37,247 nt of DNA from an uncultured Planctomycetaceae bacterium (GCA_937919915.1 CALFOL010000305.1:1-37247), one strand, 5' to 3'. Shown: positions 3,415 to 30,716, counted from the stretch's first letter. The notes: generated from the sequence alone by a model not told the origin. A program made the numbers and translations.

Positions 3415-6282
3415 TCAGGGAACAAACAGAAATTCATTCGCATTCAACATCGCTCGAGCAAACTGCAGCCAGTCCGCACGGTCAACAAACTTCAAGGCCA
3501 CTGAAATTTCATCCGGTGTCGCCGTGCGGCCGAAGCACAATTCGTACGCTCGAACAACTTTCGCAGCCGGGTCCGCGCGTTCACGTTGCAGTCGTGCAGC
3601 CAGAAACTCCGCCTGCTGCATCACGAAGCGGCTGTTCAACAAATTCAGCGCCTGCAAAGGCGTGGTGGATCGACTGCGTTTGGGCGTGACAGAGCTACCA
3701 TCGGGGCAATCGAAGACCCCAAACACGGCGTCGCGTTCCTGTCGGACTTTGGTTTGATAAACCATGCGTCGCCAGTCCCCTGGGCCGAAGTCCTGCTTCG
3801 GAAAATAGTGTCGCACATTTTCCAGTTGCACCTCGAAGGCACTAAAACCCGGGCCACCCATCGTGGAATTCAGCTTGCCTGTCACCGCCACGATACAGTC
3901 ACGGATGCCTTCGGCTTCCAATCGCCGAGGCGGAAAACGCCACAACGATCGCGACGACGCGTCCACCAGCATGGCGGCCGCTTGCGGTTGACTGTCCTGC
4001 TGCCATGTCGCGGACATCAGAATCAAACGGTGGATATGCTTCAACGACCAACCGCTGTCGATCAACTCTGCTGCCAGCCAGTCCAGCAGCTTCGGATGAG
4101 TGGGTTTCGTCCCGTTGGCTCCGAAGTCGCTCGGCGTATCAACGATGCCCGTTCCGAAATGAAACTGCCACAATCGGTTCACCATGACCCGAGCCGTCAG
4201 TGGATTTTCTGCACTGGCGATCCACCTGGCCGTTTCGATTCGCCGCTGTTGCTCGGCTGAATCAGCGGCCAGTTGCACGCCTTCCAGCGACGCGATCCCC
4301 GCGGGCAAAACCTCTTCGCGCGGCGACGCAGGTTCACCACGATACAACCGATGAGTGGCGCCAGGTTGACGGAACGTGCCGGCATGCACCATGCGAGGCT
4401 TCGCCAGCACTTCACGCTGTTTTGTCACCCCCTGCAGTGACGTCAGCAATGCACGACCGGCTTCGGCTTCGTCCGGCGCAAACGCAGCGAAGTCATAATC
4501 TGGAGCATTGGATTCCTTATCTGGTGACTCCCGATCTTCAGAACTTGCCACCGGCGACCATGCCTTATCGTCCGCCGAAACATCGATGCGATAATCAACC
4601 GCCAGGCGATCGCCGTAGTTACCCTGACGATCACGCGCCCACACGATGCGATCGATCTTTCGAACATCGGCGAATTCAATCTTCACCCAGCCGCCATTGA
4701 CCTGCGCCGAAATCCAGCTGTTCGGATTTCCGTAAATGCCATCGTTGATCTGCGAGAGCTTGTGCAGCGGATGCACGAAGTCACCCGACGACGACGACTT
4801 TGCTCCCTCACTTGCCAGAGCCACGTTTTCATTGCTGGAAAACACTTCCAATTCGTCGATGCAGGCCTGGCCGGAACTCGTTCCGTTGATGGTGAATCGC
4901 ACAAACTTCGCAGGCACCGCGGCGAATTCTTCGACGTTCAACTTCGGATTGACGGCTGGCCGCTTCGCATCTTTCGAAACGAACTTTGCAAGTTGCTGTT
5001 TCAGTGTGGCAATGTCGGCATCAAGCATTGTGACCTGCTGTTGCGCGTCCTCCGGCAGCGGCAATGCCGTGTCACCATGCTGGACTCCCGCGAACACCGC
5101 CTGCATGGCGTAGTAGTCCGTTTGCGAAATCGGATCAAACTTGTGGTTGTGACAGCGAGCACAGCCGACCGTGAGTCCCAAAAACGCGGTACTGGTGGTG
5201 TTGATCATGTCGGCAAGTTCATCCTGCCGTTGCATCATCGTGAGATTCGGATCCTGACTCTTCACAATGTCAACTGGCCCCGCCACCAGAAACGACGTGC
5301 CGATCGGATCACCTACCGCATCGCCAGCGATCTGTTCGATGATGAACTGATCGTACGGCTTGTCGTTGTTGAAAGCGTCGATCACCCAATCGCGATACGG
5401 CCAGGCATTGGGCCGTTCACGATTGGTTTCGTAACCGTTGGTTTCTCCAAAACGTACAAGGTCCAGCCAGTGCTGAGCCCACCGTTCACCGTATTGAGAA
5501 CTCGCCAGTACCTGTTCCACGAGCCGCTTCCATGCATCCGGCTGACTGTCGTTGACAAATGCCTCAACCTGTTCCGGAGTTGGCGGCAAGCCGTGCATCA
5601 CCAAAAACAGCCGACGAATCAGCCGACGACGTTCGGCGGGTTTCGACATTCGCAAACCGACATCGCTGAGCTTTCCGGCGACAAAAGCGTCGATCGCATT
5701 TTTCGCTTCGTCGACCGGCGGAACGTCCGGTCGCGCCAACGGTTGAAACGACCAGTGGTCCGTTTTTCGATCTGCGACTTTCTGCTGAGTATCCTTCCAT
5801 GCGGCTGCATCATCGATCCATGCTCGCAGGATGTTGACGTGTTCTTCAGACAGAGGATCCGATTCCGGCGGCATGCGTTTGGCCGGATCTTTGTGCGTGA
5901 TAAGTTCGATGAGATAACTCTGATCACTGTGCCCGGGAACGACGGTTTTCTCCCCCGTGTTTCCGCCAATGAGCGCCGCCATCATCGAATCCAGCCGCAG
6001 CTTCGATTCCGATTCGTCCGGGCCGTGACAATTGAAACAATGTTCTTTCAGGATTGGTACGGCGTCGCGTTCAAAGTCGGGTTCGGCTGCCGTCAGACAT
6101 TGAGTCGTCAGCGTTATCATCGCCGCGAAAATCGCGAAGAGTGTCGTTCGGGGTGATGTCGTCAGCTGTTTGGATGATCGAGTTTTGCCACGAATCTCAC
6201 GAATCGGCACGAATTTGAGGGGCTCCGGATTCGTGACAATTCGTGCAGATTCGTGGCGAAATTGTAATACCCGGATATTCAT
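3415..6282 (-). CDS. PSD1 planctomycete cytochrome c / DUF1549 / DUF1553 protein with F5/8-type-C (discoidin)-like insert
   Basis: 955 aa; CFNCHG, CARCHNHKFDPI; LDLVRFGETNGYE; RVMVNRLWQFHFGTGIVDTPSDFG; central FVRFTINGTSSGQACIDELEVFSS...DGIYGNPNSWIS...GWVKIEFADVRKIDRIVWARDR. ATG overlaps the stop of the upstream DUF1501 gene (ATGA). Confidence 0.92.
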   Translation of the reverse strand: MNIRVLQFRHESARIVTNPEPLKFVPIREIRGKTRSSKQLTTSPRTTLFAIFAAMITLTTQCLTAAEPDFERDAVPILKEHCFNCHGPDESESKLRLDSMMAALIGGNTGEKTVVPGHSDQSYLIELITHKDPAKRMPPESDPLSEEHVNILRAWIDDAAAWKDTQQKVADRKTDHWSFQPLARPDVPPVDEAKNAIDAFVAGKLSDVGLRMSKPAERRRLIRRLFLVMHGLPPTPEQVEAFVNDSQPDAWKRLVEQVLASSQYGERWAQHWLDLVRFGETNGYETNRERPNAWPYRDWVIDAFNNDKPYDQFIIEQIAGDAVGDPIGTSFLVAGPVDIVKSQDPNLTMMQRQDELADMINTTSTAFLGLTVGCARCHNHKFDPISQTDYYAMQAVFAGVQHGDTALPLPEDAQQQVTMLDADIATLKQQLAKFVSKDAKRPAVNPKLNVEEFAAVPAKFVRFTINGTSSGQACIDELEVFSSNENVALASEGAKSSSSGDFVHPLHKLSQINDGIYGNPNSWISAQVNGGWVKIEFADVRKIDRIVWARDRQGNYGDRLAVDYRIDVSADDKAWSPVASSEDRESPDKESNAPDYDFAAFAPDEAEAGRALLTSLQGVTKQREVLAKPRMVHAGTFRQPGATHRLYRGEPASPREEVLPAGIASLEGVQLAADSAEQQRRIETARWIASAENPLTARVMVNRLWQFHFGTGIVDTPSDFGANGTKPTHPKLLDWLAAELIDSGWSLKHIHRLILMSATWQQDSQPQAAAMLVDASSRSLWRFPPRRLEAEGIRDCIVAVTGKLNSTMGGPGFSAFEVQLENVRHYFPKQDFGPGDWRRMVYQTKVRQERDAVFGVFDCPDGSSVTPKRSRSTTPLQALNLLNSRFVMQQAEFLAARLQRERADPAAKVVRAYELCFGRTATPDEISVALKFVDRADWLQFARAMLNANEFLFVP
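6188..6256. repeat. Inverted-repeat element, 'CCACGAATCT' family, inside the annotated 5' end of the PSD1 ORF
   Basis: CCACGAATCTCACGAATCGGCACGAAT ... GATTCGTGACAATTCGTGCAGATTCGTGG; imperfect hairpin of 69 nt; same family as 30563..30637. Confidence 0.85.
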
Positions 6283-7760
6283 ACCATCACCTCGGAAATC
6301 AAATGCCCATGTACATCGGTCAGACGGCGTTCAATGCCGTTATGATAAAACGTCATCTTTGTGTGATCGATGCCCAACAGGTGCAGCGCGGTGGCGTGCA
6401 GATCGTAGCTATACGTCGGCGATTCAACGGCCTTGAATCCCAGCTCGTCGGTAGCTCCAAAACCGACTCCACCTTTCACACCGCCACCTGCCATCCATGC
6501 CGTAAAGGCTCCCGCGTTGTGATCGCGCCCCTTTGCCGCGGCGCCCTGTCCGGCTGGCTGGCGACCGAACTCCGTCGTACACATCACCAGAGTCTCCTCA
6601 AGCAGTCCTCGTGCCTTCAAGTCCTTCAACAACGCCGACGCTCCCACATCAAGCACTCGTCCCCAATGCCCGTGATCGCGCGACAGGTCTTCGTGCGAAT
6701 CCCAGTTGGGACGAATTTTCTTCGCCGTTGTGTTCTCCGCACCGCAATAGATCTGCACGAAGCGGACACCGCGTTCAACCAATCGCCGAGCCAACAAACA
6801 CTGCCGGCCGAACGCCGAAGTCTGTTGATCGTCAAGGCCGTACGACTGCACCGTGTTAGCTGTCTCGCCGCTGATATCCGCGACTTCCGGAGCACTCAGT
6901 TGTAACCTTGCCGCCAGCTCATACGCCGCGATGCGGGCTTCGAGATCCGTGTTGCCAACTCGTTCTCGCAGGTGTTTTCGGTTCAGTTGCTGCAGCAGAT
7001 CAAGGTCCGCCCTGTCTGCGTCGCGATTCATGTTTGCCACGGTGGAAGGTGGAAATAAGTCCGCGATCGGTTGGCGACCAGCGGTGGTTTCCAGCGTCGT
7101 TGCCTGATACACGGCTGGCAAAAATCCCGAACCCCAGTTGATGATGCCTCCCGGCGGAAGCCCGGCGGGATCAGGCAATACAACAAACGCTGGCAGGTTT
7201 TCACTTTCACTGCCGAGGCCGTAGGTCACCCACGATCCCATGCTGGGAAAACCGGGCGACGTGAACCCGGTGTTCATCATAAAACATCCCGGCCCGTGCA
7301 ACGCCGACTTGCTGTGCATGGAATAGATGAACGCCATATCATCGATGCAGGTGGCCAGTTCCGGAAACAAGTCCGACATCCACAGACCCGATTCTCCATG
7401 CTGTCGAAACCGCCAGAAGCTCGGACGACAGTTGCCTGGCTTTGACGCAAAAAACTGCAGCTTACCGTCCGCATCAAACGGTTTCCCCTCGCGTTTGACG
7501 AGTTCCGGTTTGTGGTCGAACGTATCAACCTGACTCATGCCACCCGGACAGAAAATCTGAATCACGGCCTTCGCTTTGGCGCGATGATGAGTCCCATTGG
7601 CCAGCGTCGCAGCAGATGCCGCGGTCGCTTCCTGCTGCATCATCGCCTGAGCCGCCAGCCAGCCGAAACCTCCGGCGGCGGCCTGCAGGATCTCACGACG
7701 AGACGTCCCCGAATTCTCTGGTGGAGCAGCGTCATTCTGATTGTTACGGCTAATAGGCAT
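6279..7760 (-). CDS. DUF1501 domain-containing protein (Tat-type N-terminus), copy 2
   Basis: 493 aa; TSRREILQAAAGGFGWLAAQAM; IFCPGGMSQVDTFDHKPEL; HGPGCFMMNTGFTSPGFPSMGSWVTYGLG; GRDHNAGAFTAWMAGGG; paralogous to copy 1. Confidence 0.94.
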   Translation of the reverse strand: MPISRNNQNDAAPPENSGTSRREILQAAAGGFGWLAAQAMMQQEATAASAATLANGTHHRAKAKAVIQIFCPGGMSQVDTFDHKPELVKREGKPFDADGKLQFFASKPGNCRPSFWRFRQHGESGLWMSDLFPELATCIDDMAFIYSMHSKSALHGPGCFMMNTGFTSPGFPSMGSWVTYGLGSESENLPAFVVLPDPAGLPPGGIINWGSGFLPAVYQATTLETTAGRQPIADLFPPSTVANMNRDADRADLDLLQQLNRKHLRERVGNTDLEARIAAYELAARLQLSAPEVADISGETANTVQSYGLDDQQTSAFGRQCLLARRLVERGVRFVQIYCGAENTTAKKIRPNWDSHEDLSRDHGHWGRVLDVGASALLKDLKARGLLEETLVMCTTEFGRQPAGQGAAAKGRDHNAGAFTAWMAGGGVKGGVGFGATDELGFKAVESPTYSYDLHATALHLLGIDHTKMTFYHNGIERRLTDVHGHLISEVMV

Positions 7761-23206: not shown

Positions 23207-26200
23207 ATGCGCCCGTCAGTTCTTTTTATGGTGCTCAGCCTGCCGTTTCTCGCTGCTGCTGTTGCCGACGACCTCCCCACAGGGGTCAGCAATTCGCAGA
23301 ACCCGGCCGACGTTTCTCTGACGCCCGCTGAGTCACTGGCACGCATGACTGTGCCGGACGGTTTTTCCGTGACGCTGTTTGCGGGCGAACCGGACATCCG
23401 GCGACCGATTGCATTCGACTTCGATGATCGCGGGCGACTGTGGGTGGTGGAAAACTATTCGCACCCTAAGTGGAAAGAAGGTAACGGCACAGATCGCATC
23501 GTTATTCTCGAAGACACGGACAACGACGGACAGTTCGACAAACGAAAGATCTTCTACGACAAGGGACGATACCTGACCGGATTGGCCGTGGGGCACGGCG
23601 GAGTGTGGATCGCCAACACGCCGGAACTTTCTTTCATCCCGGATCGCGACGGAGACGATCAGCCGGATTCTGCCCCGCAGGTGATGTTGGATGGCTTTCA
23701 GGTTTCTTCCAACAATGTGCTGAACAATTTTCATTGGGGACCAGACGGCTGGCTGTATGGAGCCATCGGTCTGTCGTCGAACTCGCTCGTCGGCAAACCG
23801 GGCGCACCGGCTGACCAACGCGTGCAGATCACACGCGGTCTGTGGCGGTTTCATCCGGTGACTCATGTGTTCGAAAAAATTGCGGAAGGCATGGTGAATC
23901 CGTGGGGAGCCGACTTCAACGAATACGGCGACCTGATCACGGCCAACACCGTGATCGCGCATCTGTGGCACATCGTGCCCGGCATGTATTGCGAACGGCG
24001 AGCCAACGAGCGAGACAATCCGTACGCTTACAGTCGCATTCAGACGATCGCGAATCACCTGCACTGGGGCGGCGGCGGTTGGCAAAGCTCGCGAGCTCCC
24101 GAAAACCAGAAGCCGCCGACAAAAGATGACGACGCTGGTCACCACGATGACAAATACCACCGGCACTCCGTCGCTGGCGGCGGGCACGCTCATTGCGGCG
24201 CGATGATTTACCTGGCGGACAACTGGCCGAAGAAGTACCGCGGAACGTTTCTGACGAACAACCTGCACGGTAGTCGAGTCAACAACGACCGGCTGGGGCC
24301 GAAGCGATCGACCTACGTCGGCGAACATGCAGAAGACTTGTTGTTCGCGAACGACCCGTGGTTTCGCGGGATGAACATCAAGTACGGCCCTGATGGCGGA
24401 GTTTACATTTCCGACTGGCACGACTTTGGCGAATGCCACGACAGCGACGGCAGTCATCGCAGCAGCGGGCGCGTGTACAAATTCGTCTACGGTACCGTCG
24501 ACAAGCCACGGACGAATCTGCAGCAGCGTTCGTCGCTGGAGCTCGCGGAGCTGCATCTTCACAACAACGAATGGTACGTCCGACACGCGCGGCGGCTGCT
24601 GCACGAACGAGCTGTCGGCGGTAGCGACATCAGCGAGGCCACTGCTCGTCTGCGAGAAATCTTCGCGGGTGATGCTGAAGAAACGGACAAGCTGCGAGCA
24701 CTTTGGACGCTGTACTGCGTGGGCGAGTTGCCGCAGTCGAAACTTGTCGAATTGCTCCATCATCGCAGCGAACACGTTCGCCGATGGGCCGTGCGATTTC
24801 TCGTCGACCACCGGCCCTGCGACACGTCGCCTCATTCTGTTGACGACGCGATCTCTGCGGAAACGATCGACCGCTTCACTCACTTGGCGGCCAACGATGC
24901 GTCGGCCAAGGTTCGGCTCGAAGTGGCATGTGCTCTGCAACGGCTTCCACACAAACATCGGCTGCCAATCGCTGCTGCTCTGACAAGCCACGCGGAAGAC
25001 GCGACCGATCCGTATCTGCCGCTGATGACGTGGTATGGACTCGAACCGGCCGTGCCGAACAACGCAGTGGCGGTTTTGCGTCTGGCGGCTGCGTCAAAAC
25101 TTTCGTTGGTCCGGCAGTACATCGCACGACGACTGGTCGATCAGGAATCTCCAGCGATCGACGCGGTCATCACTGCCGCCGCCAGCCACAAGAAGGAAGC
25201 CGTTCGCCGCGATTTGCTGCTCGGAACGGTTGAAGCTCTCGACGGACTGGGCACTCAACAGCCTCCACAAACCTGGTCGCATCTCTACGCAGAAGTTGCC
25301 ACAGCGAAGGATCCTCAACTGCGATCGATCGCCGTTAAGCTGGCAACAATCTTCGGTGACAAGCAGGCTATTGGCAATCTGCGAAACACCGTCATGAACA
25401 ACGATTCAGATGACGCGGATCGTCGCGAAGCTCTGACCTCCCTGCTGCAACTTGAAGATGGAGCTCCCGTCGACATGCTGCACAAGCTTGTCAACGAAGA
25501 TTCCGCCCTGCGGCGCGACGCGATTCTGGCACTCGGCGTGAAAAATTCGCCCGCAACCACGAAAGTGTTGCTCGCCAGCTACGCATCGCTGACACCTCAG
25601 CAAAAGCAAGATGCTGTTGGTGTCCTGGCAACGAGGCAATCGTTCGCCAATGCTCTGCTGGATGCCATCGAAGACGGCAGCGTCGACCGCAGCGATGTTT
25701 CGGCTTACACGCTACAGCAACTGCGATCGTTCAACGTCGACGAGTTACAAAGTCGCATCAAAACTCTCTGGGCCAACGACACGGCCACGCTGCTGAAGTC
25801 GGATGAAATCGTGGCCTACCAAAAACGCATGTCACCCGACTTTCTGGCTCAGGGAAGCGCCACGGCCGGTCGTCTGGTGTTTGCTCGAACCTGTGCCAAG
25901 TGCCACACGCTGTTCGGCGAAGGCGGCACCATCGCACCGGACCTGACGGGTTCCGGCCGCAGGAAACCGGACTACGTGCTGCGAAATTTGATCGATCCCA
26001 GCGCCGAGATCGACGCGGCCTATCGTTTGACCACCGTGCTGACCGCCGATGGCCGATTGTTCAACGGTTTCATGATGCATCAGGATGACAAGTGGCTCAT
26101 CGTGAGAACTCTGGACGCCAGGATTCGACTCAACCTGAACGACGTCGACGAACTAGTAACGTCGAATGTCTCGATGATGCCCGAAGGCATGCTGCGAACC

Positions 26201-26281
26201 TTCACCACCGAACAGGTCCGCGACCTGCTGGTGTATCTCGCCAGCGACGACCAAGTGGCTCTGCCAGAATCGACACAGTAA
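23207..26281 (+). CDS. PVC-type membrane-bound dehydrogenase (beta-propeller) with HEAT-like repeats and C-terminal cytochrome c
   Basis: MRPSVLFMVLSLPFLAAAVADD signal; RMTVPDGFSVTLFAGEPDIRRPIAFDFDDRGRLWVVENYSHP; HEAT-like middle; CAKCHTLFGEGGTIAPDLTGSGR. ORF track start 23129 is probably too far upstream. Confidence 0.92.
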   Translation: MRPSVLFMVLSLPFLAAAVADDLPTGVSNSQNPADVSLTPAESLARMTVPDGFSVTLFAGEPDIRRPIAFDFDDRGRLWVVENYSHPKWKEGNGTDRIVILEDTDNDGQFDKRKIFYDKGRYLTGLAVGHGGVWIANTPELSFIPDRDGDDQPDSAPQVMLDGFQVSSNNVLNNFHWGPDGWLYGAIGLSSNSLVGKPGAPADQRVQITRGLWRFHPVTHVFEKIAEGMVNPWGADFNEYGDLITANTVIAHLWHIVPGMYCERRANERDNPYAYSRIQTIANHLHWGGGGWQSSRAPENQKPPTKDDDAGHHDDKYHRHSVAGGGHAHCGAMIYLADNWPKKYRGTFLTNNLHGSRVNNDRLGPKRSTYVGEHAEDLLFANDPWFRGMNIKYGPDGGVYISDWHDFGECHDSDGSHRSSGRVYKFVYGTVDKPRTNLQQRSSLELAELHLHNNEWYVRHARRLLHERAVGGSDISEATARLREIFAGDAEETDKLRALWTLYCVGELPQSKLVELLHHRSEHVRRWAVRFLVDHRPCDTSPHSVDDAISAETIDRFTHLAANDASAKVRLEVACALQRLPHKHRLPIAAALTSHAEDATDPYLPLMTWYGLEPAVPNNAVAVLRLAAASKLSLVRQYIARRLVDQESPAIDAVITAAASHKKEAVRRDLLLGTVEALDGLGTQQPPQTWSHLYAEVATAKDPQLRSIAVKLATIFGDKQAIGNLRNTVMNNDSDDADRREALTSLLQLEDGAPVDMLHKLVNEDSALRRDAILALGVKNSPATTKVLLASYASLTPQQKQDAVGVLATRQSFANALLDAIEDGSVDRSDVSAYTLQQLRSFNVDELQSRIKTLWANDTATLLKSDEIVAYQKRMSPDFLAQGSATAGRLVFARTCAKCHTLFGEGGTIAPDLTGSGRRKPDYVLRNLIDPSAEIDAAYRLTTVLTADGRLFNGFMMHQDDKWLIVRTLDARIRLNLNDVDELVTSNVSMMPEGMLRTFTTEQVRDLLVYLASDDQVALPESTQ

Positions 26282-26285
26282 TTTC

Positions 26286-26440
26286 ATCCGCGTCTTCCGT
26301 GAAATCCGTGGTTCCGTTCTTGACTACGGATAACGCGGATAGCACGGATGAAACGCAAAGGATGCGAAGGCGCAAGGACGCAAAGGATGTACTGATCAAC
26401 GCGATTCCGTTGCACCTTCGCGTCCTTGCGCCTTTGCGTG
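26286..26440. repeat. Composite intergenic repeat: 'ATCCGTG' arms plus 'GCAAAGGCGCAAGGACGC' inverted repeat
   Basis: GCGAAGGCGCAAGGACGCAAAGG (26364..26386) pairs with CCTTCGCGTCCTTGCGCCTTTGC (26415..26437), 21/23; flanking ATCCGCGTCTTCCGTGAAATCCGTGG / CGGATAACGCGGATAGCACGGATG. Confidence 0.8.
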
Positions 26441-26532
26441 ACGTTCTTCTCTCAAGTTTGCCGCTTCCATTGATTGCAGACCGCGGTATCCTGTGCCGAA
26501 CAACAGCACTCAAGACGGTACCGGGAACCTCA

Positions 26533-27351
26533 ATGGATCTTCAACTTCAGGACAAAGTCGCTCTGGTCACAGGCGGTTCCAAGGGCATTGGCCTTGGAAT
26601 CGTACGTTCGTTGATCGCGGAAGGCGTCAAAGTAGTCAACGTAAATCGCAGTGAAGCCGAAGGCCGCGCACTGGAAGCGGAATACGCATCGCAGGACAAA
26701 GACTGCGTGTTCGTTCAGGGCGATTTGACGGACACCGACGCGTGTCGCAACGCGGTCGAAACAACTCTGCAACGCTTCGGTCGGATTGACATTCTGGTCA
26801 ACAACGCGGGAGTCAACGACGGCGCGGGACTCGACGCCGGCCCGGAAGCGTTCGTCGCGTCGCTGCAGAAGAACCTGATTCACTACTACGCGATGGCTCA
26901 TTACGCACTCGACGCATTAAAGCAGTCGAAAGGCTGTATCATCAATATCGGTTCGAAAGTGTGCGAAACCGGCCAGGGCGGAACGTCGGGCTACGCCGCA
27001 TCGAAAGGCGGAATCAACGGCCTGACACGCGAATGGGCGGTCGAATTGGCTTCGGACGGTGTTCGAGTCAACTGTGTGCTGCCCGCAGAAACCTGGACGC
27101 CGCTGTACGAAAAGTGTCTCGACGCGATGCCCGATCCTGCAGCTGCAAAGTCTGAAATCGAACGGTTGATTCCGCTGGGCCAACGTTTCACAACGATCGA
27201 AGAACTAGCTGACATGGCCGTGTTCCTTGCGTCGCCGCGTTCCAGTCACACCACCGGCCAGATCATCTTCGTCGATGGCGGGTACACTCACTTCGACCGC
27301 AAATGCACGATGGCCAGCGACGTGGCTGGCTTTGGCGCCGCTGCGAAGTAA
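26533..27351 (+). CDS. SDR-family oxidoreductase
   Basis: MDLQLQDKVALVTGGSKGIGLGIV (TGxxxGxG), NNAG, GYAASKGG (YxxxK), GQIIFVDGGYTH. ORF track start at 26092 runs through the repeat and the upstream CDS and is rejected. Confidence 0.95.
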   Translation: MDLQLQDKVALVTGGSKGIGLGIVRSLIAEGVKVVNVNRSEAEGRALEAEYASQDKDCVFVQGDLTDTDACRNAVETTLQRFGRIDILVNNAGVNDGAGLDAGPEAFVASLQKNLIHYYAMAHYALDALKQSKGCIINIGSKVCETGQGGTSGYAASKGGINGLTREWAVELASDGVRVNCVLPAETWTPLYEKCLDAMPDPAAAKSEIERLIPLGQRFTTIEELADMAVFLASPRSSHTTGQIIFVDGGYTHFDRKCTMASDVAGFGAAAK

Positions 27352-27358
27352 CCATTCT

Positions 27359-27375
27359 ATTCGTGAAATTCGTGA
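27359..27375. repeat. Solo half-arm of the ATTCGTG/CACGAAT repeat family
   Basis: ATTCGTGAAATTCGTGA between the SDR and methyltransferase genes. Confidence 0.45.
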
Positions 27376-27406
27376 TTCGCATTTTTAGATATGTATCACC
27401 CAGAAC

Positions 27407-30465: not shown

Positions 30466-30562
30466 GATCCTGTTTCGTAAAGGTCACCATCGAAACCGTT
30501 TTGATATGTCTAGCTTAACAGGGAGTCGGGGCATTCACCCGGTAACATGTTCGATTGATTGG

Positions 30563-30637
30563 CCACGAATCTCATGAATCCGCACGAATCTGTTCGGCTC
30601 GCTGCGATTCATTCGTGCGGATTCATGAGATTCGTGG
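30563..30637. repeat. Perfect 27-bp inverted repeat, 'CCACGAATCT' family
   Basis: CCACGAATCTCATGAATCCGCACGAAT (30563..30589) - 21 nt - ATTCGTGCGGATTCATGAGATTCGTGG (30611..30637). Confidence 0.92.
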
Positions 30638-30716
30638 CTGAATTTGATCCCGTTCTGCTGACGGCAGGTTGACTTCCGGCTCTGGTCGGCCATCCTTTCG
30701 ACTTCTTCCTCTGTTC

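Follow-up and report, generated by a model that had tools for sequence, protein, structure and literature searches.

The stretch of DNA considered here (the window) is a whole contig of 37,247 nucleotides (G000:C305) from an uncultured Planctomycetaceae bacterium. Its source genome is a draft assembly of 7.2 Mb in 925 contigs, and for the genome as a whole we relied on pattern searches and a sample of loci. The window carries an array in which a PSD1 gene, a DUF1501 gene, a second PSD1 gene, an open reading frame of 343 amino acids and another DUF1501 gene follow one another. The features at the junction between the first of these DUF1501 genes and the PSD1 gene behind it, together with related repeats elsewhere in the window, are the following:

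6279..7760, minus strand: DUF1501 gene, the upstream partner (open reading frame; PF07394, E = 4e-141)
6286..6293, minus strand: Shine-Dalgarno-like GAGGTGAT, which doubles as codons of the DUF1501 C-terminus (sequence; duplex energy)
6279..6282, minus strand: ATGA overlap of the DUF1501 stop with the PSD1 start (sequence, open reading frames; three syntenic relatives)
3415..6282, minus strand: PSD1 gene (PSCyt1-PSCyt2-PSD1), 955 aa (open reading frame; Pfam)
6188..6256, minus strand: palindromic repeat, copy 1, with two arms of three CACGAAT heptamers each; in-frame part of residues 9-32
6208..6210, minus strand: in-frame GTG within the right arm (V25), a possible alternative start (sequence)
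6079..6147, minus strand: hydrophobic signal segment TTLFAIFAAMITLTTQCLTAAEP, PSD1 residues 46-68 (translation, hydropathy)
6118..6120, minus strand: next in-frame ATG past the repeat, which would truncate the signal (sequence)
27359..27374 (within 27352-27380), minus strand: fragment of this repeat family comprising one arm, directly behind the stop of the open reading frame 26092-27351
30562..30638, no strand assigned: palindromic repeat, copy 2, with perfect arms of 28 bp, intergenic between divergent genes

The PSD1 gene is intact: its open frame of 955 aa contains every domain, namely PSCyt1 (E = 7.5e-17), PSCyt2 (4e-79) and PSD1 (7.9e-88). Both the sequence and the open reading frames bear out the overlap of its start codon with the DUF1501 stop in an ATGA at 6282-6279, as described in the first-pass annotation, and the translation agrees with the further claim that the palindrome is read in frame ahead of the signal segment, from which the palindrome-encoded residues are separated by a basic stretch. 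The same operon contains another stop/start overlap at 2281-2284, between the 343-aa open reading frame and the next DUF1501 gene.

The palindrome itself (6256..6188) spans 69 nt with an MFE of -38.2. Folded as RNA together with its flanks (79 nt), it reaches -43.1 kcal/mol compared with -17.3 kcal/mol for shuffled sequences (z -9.1; 0 of 200 shuffles), and the same stretch folded as DNA gives a z of -8.1. The hairpin also forms in a 181-nt fold of the mRNA, where it starts 26 nt past the A of the PSD1 ATG and therefore need not cover the initiation site. A search for transcription terminators yielded 0 sites, so that a terminator was rejected as a reading of the palindrome, and an Rfam search of the window gave no match to a known RNA family.

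A comparison with related junctions, which had been proposed as a check on the locus, could be made with three relatives of good homology and the same gene order: G012:C18 (L118), whose DUF1501 protein is 76% identical, G018:C488 (L117) and G004:C226 (L116). They share the order PSD1 - DUF1501 - PSD1 with the window; in G018 and G004 the array continues into another DUF1501 gene, as it does in the window, and the G012 contig stops behind the second PSD1 gene. This arrangement is uncommon, in that PSD1 comes first in many of the relatives examined, and of the best 30 PSD1 loci within the order, a DUF1501 gene immediately precedes PSD1 in the window and in G012 only. The junctions of all three relatives are free of any unusual hairpin (z 0.13 in G012, -1.2 in G018 and -0.7 in G004), and all three keep the PSD1 start at the DUF1501 stop or next to it: the stop and start overlap as ATGA in G012, like in the window, and as GTGA in G018, while the ATG of G004 lies 7 nt downstream of the stop's first base.

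PSD1 begins with MNIK in G004 and with MNIR in the window, and the leader that precedes the hydrophobic core varies in length, from 45 aa in the window and in G012 to 10 aa in G018 and 9 aa in G004. Without the palindrome, the leader of the window would comprise 22 residues. In G012, the ATGA provides the only usable start, and the resulting leader of 45 aa lacks a palindrome, so that long leaders seem to be tolerated at this junction; we considered whether this leader might be a decayed copy of the repeat, but it shows no excess folding (z 0.13). Judged from these three relatives, a start at the DUF1501 stop appears to be usual at the junction and the palindrome not, with leader length apparently free to vary. 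The comparison thus supports a coupled PSD1 start that is independent of the repeat, and, as the hairpin-free relatives retain this start, the repeat most likely entered a coupled junction that already existed. With PSD1 identities of about 55-63%, these relatives do not allow an alignment of the exact empty site, and the ancestor could have carried the repeat.

The coupled start is further marked by GAGGTGAT, an 8-nt match to the anti-Shine-Dalgarno sequence located 3 nt ahead of the ATG, with its GAGG core 7 nt from the ATG. Its predicted duplex with the 16S tail amounts to -13.3 kcal/mol, in line with the ribosome-binding site proposed earlier just upstream of this ATG. It had been cautioned that the match could be coincidental because it also encodes the DUF1501 C-terminus. 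This double use is real, but several DUF1501 homologs that have no overlapping gene end otherwise, for instance in GACCTGCTGGCC TGA, and lack such a match. Where the start overlaps and the PSD1 protein is of the same type, the duplex energies are -13.3 (window), -9.3 (G012) and -14.3 kcal/mol (G018); three DUF1501 homologs that overlap a different PSD1-like gene range from -4.9 to -6.4 kcal/mol, and G004, with its start 7 nt further on, has -5.9 kcal/mol. Given the absence of the match from several uncoupled homologs and the energies of -9.3 to -14.3 kcal/mol in the window, G012 and G018, this informal comparison of a few cases suggests that the match is more than a by-product of coding.

The palindrome belongs to a dispersed repeat family. 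The window contains three traces of it, i.e. the two copies and the one-arm fragment, and the genome as a whole has few copies: apart from the two in the window, others lie on contigs C5, C285, C307 and C754, in addition to weaker traces. Beyond this genome, a search of 170 genomes of the taxonomic family recovered CCACGAATCTCACGAATC, with at most one mismatch, from 24 of them and no more than 52 times from any one, while the reversed control gave 0 throughout. At the level of the class, 23 of 249 genomes have three consecutive heptamers (control: 0), and at the level of the phylum, 29 of 119 have the degenerate form CACRNAT three times in a row (two control hits overall). The repeat family is thus patchy across Planctomycetota. 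Palindromes built of CACGAAT, CACAGAT or CACGGAT in steps of 9-10 nt occur in G054, G147, G143, G159, G008, G263, G393 and others, the largest number of three-heptamer arms in a genome being 179, in G393; outside the family, the CACAGAT versions dominate among the matches listed. In one further genome (G100:C379:2325-2713), an array of palindromes alternates in arm direction every ~73 nt. In the limited literature covered, we found no description of this repeat family and no text match to its related forms, and the matches listed for CACGAAT forms were only short 10-mers, none of them in work on planctomycetes by title; within these bounds, the family is likely new.

The family has a common design, in which each arm consists of three CACGAAT heptamers at a spacing of 9-10 nt, the loops vary and the flanks read AAC/GTT. 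Next to the outermost heptamer, the flank has C at position -1 in 171 of 174 cases, A at -2 in 157 of 174 and A again in 108 of 174; the copies in the window belong to a minority with GC in place of AAC. In 39 paired elements, the outer spacers agree between the arms more often than after shuffling (0.64 vs 0.51), the inner spacers less often (0.23 vs 0.32, ~1.4 standard deviations), and the inner spacers are of equal length in 35 of 39 (20 expected), a spacer signal for which lineage structure can account in part. The paired elements consequently resemble a stem with regular internal loops, where the heptamers pair and the inner spacers tend not to. Loops of common ancestry are found among the copies in G054 (14 of 120 pairs) but hardly in G147 (0 of 28) or G143 (1 of 28). 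From the agreement of the spacers and the comparison of the loops, it appears that the heptamers, rather than the entire hairpin, are the conserved unit. Given paired heptamers, unpaired inner spacers and variable loops, the elements might be sites for a recombinase or a single-strand binding enzyme that regenerates them; that these heptamer-iterated repeats (CACRNAT in 9-10 nt steps, three per arm) form an undescribed, phylum-wide class of palindromes of this kind, and that the PSD1 leader is one of the sites where they are tolerated on landing, is an idea we put forward only tentatively.

The extent of the insert in the PSD1 leader bears on a related claim, namely that a multiple of three nucleotides had been inserted. 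This is not supported as it stands: the 69 nt describe the palindrome only, and the family flank seems to extend beyond its 3' side, where GCAAAACTCG resembles, by eye, the reversed outer flank of the relatives' copies (GAGTTTTGGC). The insert is therefore probably longer than 69 nt, even if the 3' end of the window copy (GCAAAACTCG) did not score highly in an ungapped flank profile.

Where the copies sit was assessed in a sample of 52 elements, a few of which are nested calls of a single element. Forty-two of them lie in no long open reading frame and 10 in one with at least 100 further codons; a Pfam scan of 8 of these 10 spanning frames assigned a family to none, and frames without a Pfam match can be real. 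The copy in the PSD1 leader is the only one found within a recognisable gene. Furthermore, the frames differ between copies: the spanning frames read the arms as TTNLTN, PRITRI, NHESE or PRITQM, and the PSD1 copy reads RHESARI.

These numbers affect the analogy with the palindromic elements of Rickettsia, which had been drawn for this locus and of which, according to the review PMC10969869, nearly half lie in open reading frames. The likeness is a dispersed palindrome read in the frame of a gene that is otherwise intact. Of the planctomycete copies sampled, 10 of 52 lie in long frames, with no Pfam family in the 8 scanned. A habit of in-frame insertion as in Rickettsia was thus not borne out: in-gene copies are the exception here, the one recognisable case lies in a leader and not in the body of a protein, and no single encoded peptide is conserved. 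Judged by the share within open reading frames and by the encoded peptide, the Rickettsia analogy is weak.

A further parallel is offered by the GTAG/CGTC REPs, dispersed hairpins that are mostly extragenic and in some cases found at the N-terminal ends of open reading frames, where they may be harmless or misannotated (PMC3733652). In structure, these stem-loops of 20-40 bp differ from the planctomycete elements, whose arms consist of three 7-nt modules, whose length is ~60-240 nt and whose ends, with AAC/GTT flanks (AAC|CACGAAT), show no GTAG/CGTC. An origin as RAYT/TIRYT elements found no support at the 30 top-scoring loci of the Y1 transposase (PF01797), none of which has paired heptamers within ~1.5 kb; Y1 genes are present in 46 of 48 genomes, so that their presence is uninformative on the repeat. 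The enterobacterial RU/ERIC repeats can be fused to open reading frames, in one case within a predicted signal peptide (PMC2759123), but they are a different repeat, and the copy described here lies upstream of the hydrophobic core behind a start coupled to the upstream gene. In general terms, the elements are dispersed and have terminal inverted repeats and a length of 70-300 bp, like MITEs, with some copies slightly shorter. Integron attC sites, considered on account of the AAC/GTT flanks, were set aside, as G or T, and not pyrimidines, predominate at positions -6 to -4.

We consider it probable that a dispersed hairpin repeat was inserted after the coupled start of PSD1 and is translated ahead of the signal core, with no special role in the gene. 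Three other readings deserve consideration. The first concerns the start codon. The interval from repeat to signal is indeed free of ATG, GTG and TTG, as had been stated, but there is an in-frame GTG within the repeat, at 6210-6208. If PSD1 started there, the repeat would have supplied a new start and part of the n-region and the ATGA would be a leftover; MPIREIRGKTRSSKQLTTSPRT would then precede the hydrophobic core, an n-region of more usual length that makes for a normal-looking signal peptide, and a GGAG is found 12 nt upstream. Yet this GTG lies within the stem, and its Shine-Dalgarno sequence is weak and distant, for which reasons we rank it as a rival start only; moreover, the ATGA carries the 8-nt match, and the PSD1 genes of the relatives begin at or near the stop. 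On balance, this reading is unlikely.

A second reading, which we regard as quite improbable, takes the repeat as an untranslated RNA element, such as an attenuator, an mRNA stabiliser or a processing site; PSD1 would then begin further downstream, either at 6120 or from a non-canonical codon. The strong hairpin at the junction would suit this role, such hairpins can act on mRNA, and most sampled copies of the family lie outside long open reading frames. Against it stand the lack of a terminator-like site and the frame from the ATGA, which is open through the entire leader. The only ATG, GTG or TTG before the signal is the GTG in the repeat, and the next ATG does lie at 6120-6118, as had been noted, where a start would remove most of the signal. 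That the translated repeat is functional in itself, its hairpin slowing ribosomes behind the start and thereby setting the DUF1501:PSD1 ratio or aiding export, has the position and stability of the hairpin in its favor, but is very improbable in view of the three relatives that lack it and the location of most other sampled copies outside genes.

Under the insertion reading, a hairpin repeat of a Planctomycetota-wide family, mobile or otherwise dispersed, would have inserted a few codons past a PSD1 start that overlaps the DUF1501 stop. Ribosomes that end DUF1501 would begin PSD1 at the ATGA, aided by the Shine-Dalgarno-like sequence, and, as the arms are open in the PSD1 frame, would read through the repeat. 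The ~24 extra residues, given their position ahead of the hydrophobic core of the signal, would be lost during export or else be tolerated as part of the leader, and the repeat would have been kept because it is open in frame and lies ahead of the signal core, playing no special role in the PSD1 gene. The dispersed copies elsewhere in the genome and in the 24 genomes of the family, set against the empty reversed control, count in favor of insertion. On the other side stand the warning that repeats at N-termini may in fact lie outside genes and reflect misannotation (PMC3733652), the modest identity of the relatives, the draft state of the assembly and the in-frame GTG, which could be the start. 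Taken together, translation of the repeat as a harmless stretch ahead of an export signal is very probable.

The locus thereby adds a further bacterial lineage, far from Rickettsia, in which translation of a palindromic repeat within an intact gene is very probable. It also suggests a simple rule for where such repeats may be tolerated, namely in the interval from the start codon to the signal core, and it has led to a repeat family of Planctomycetota with an unusual and testable design.
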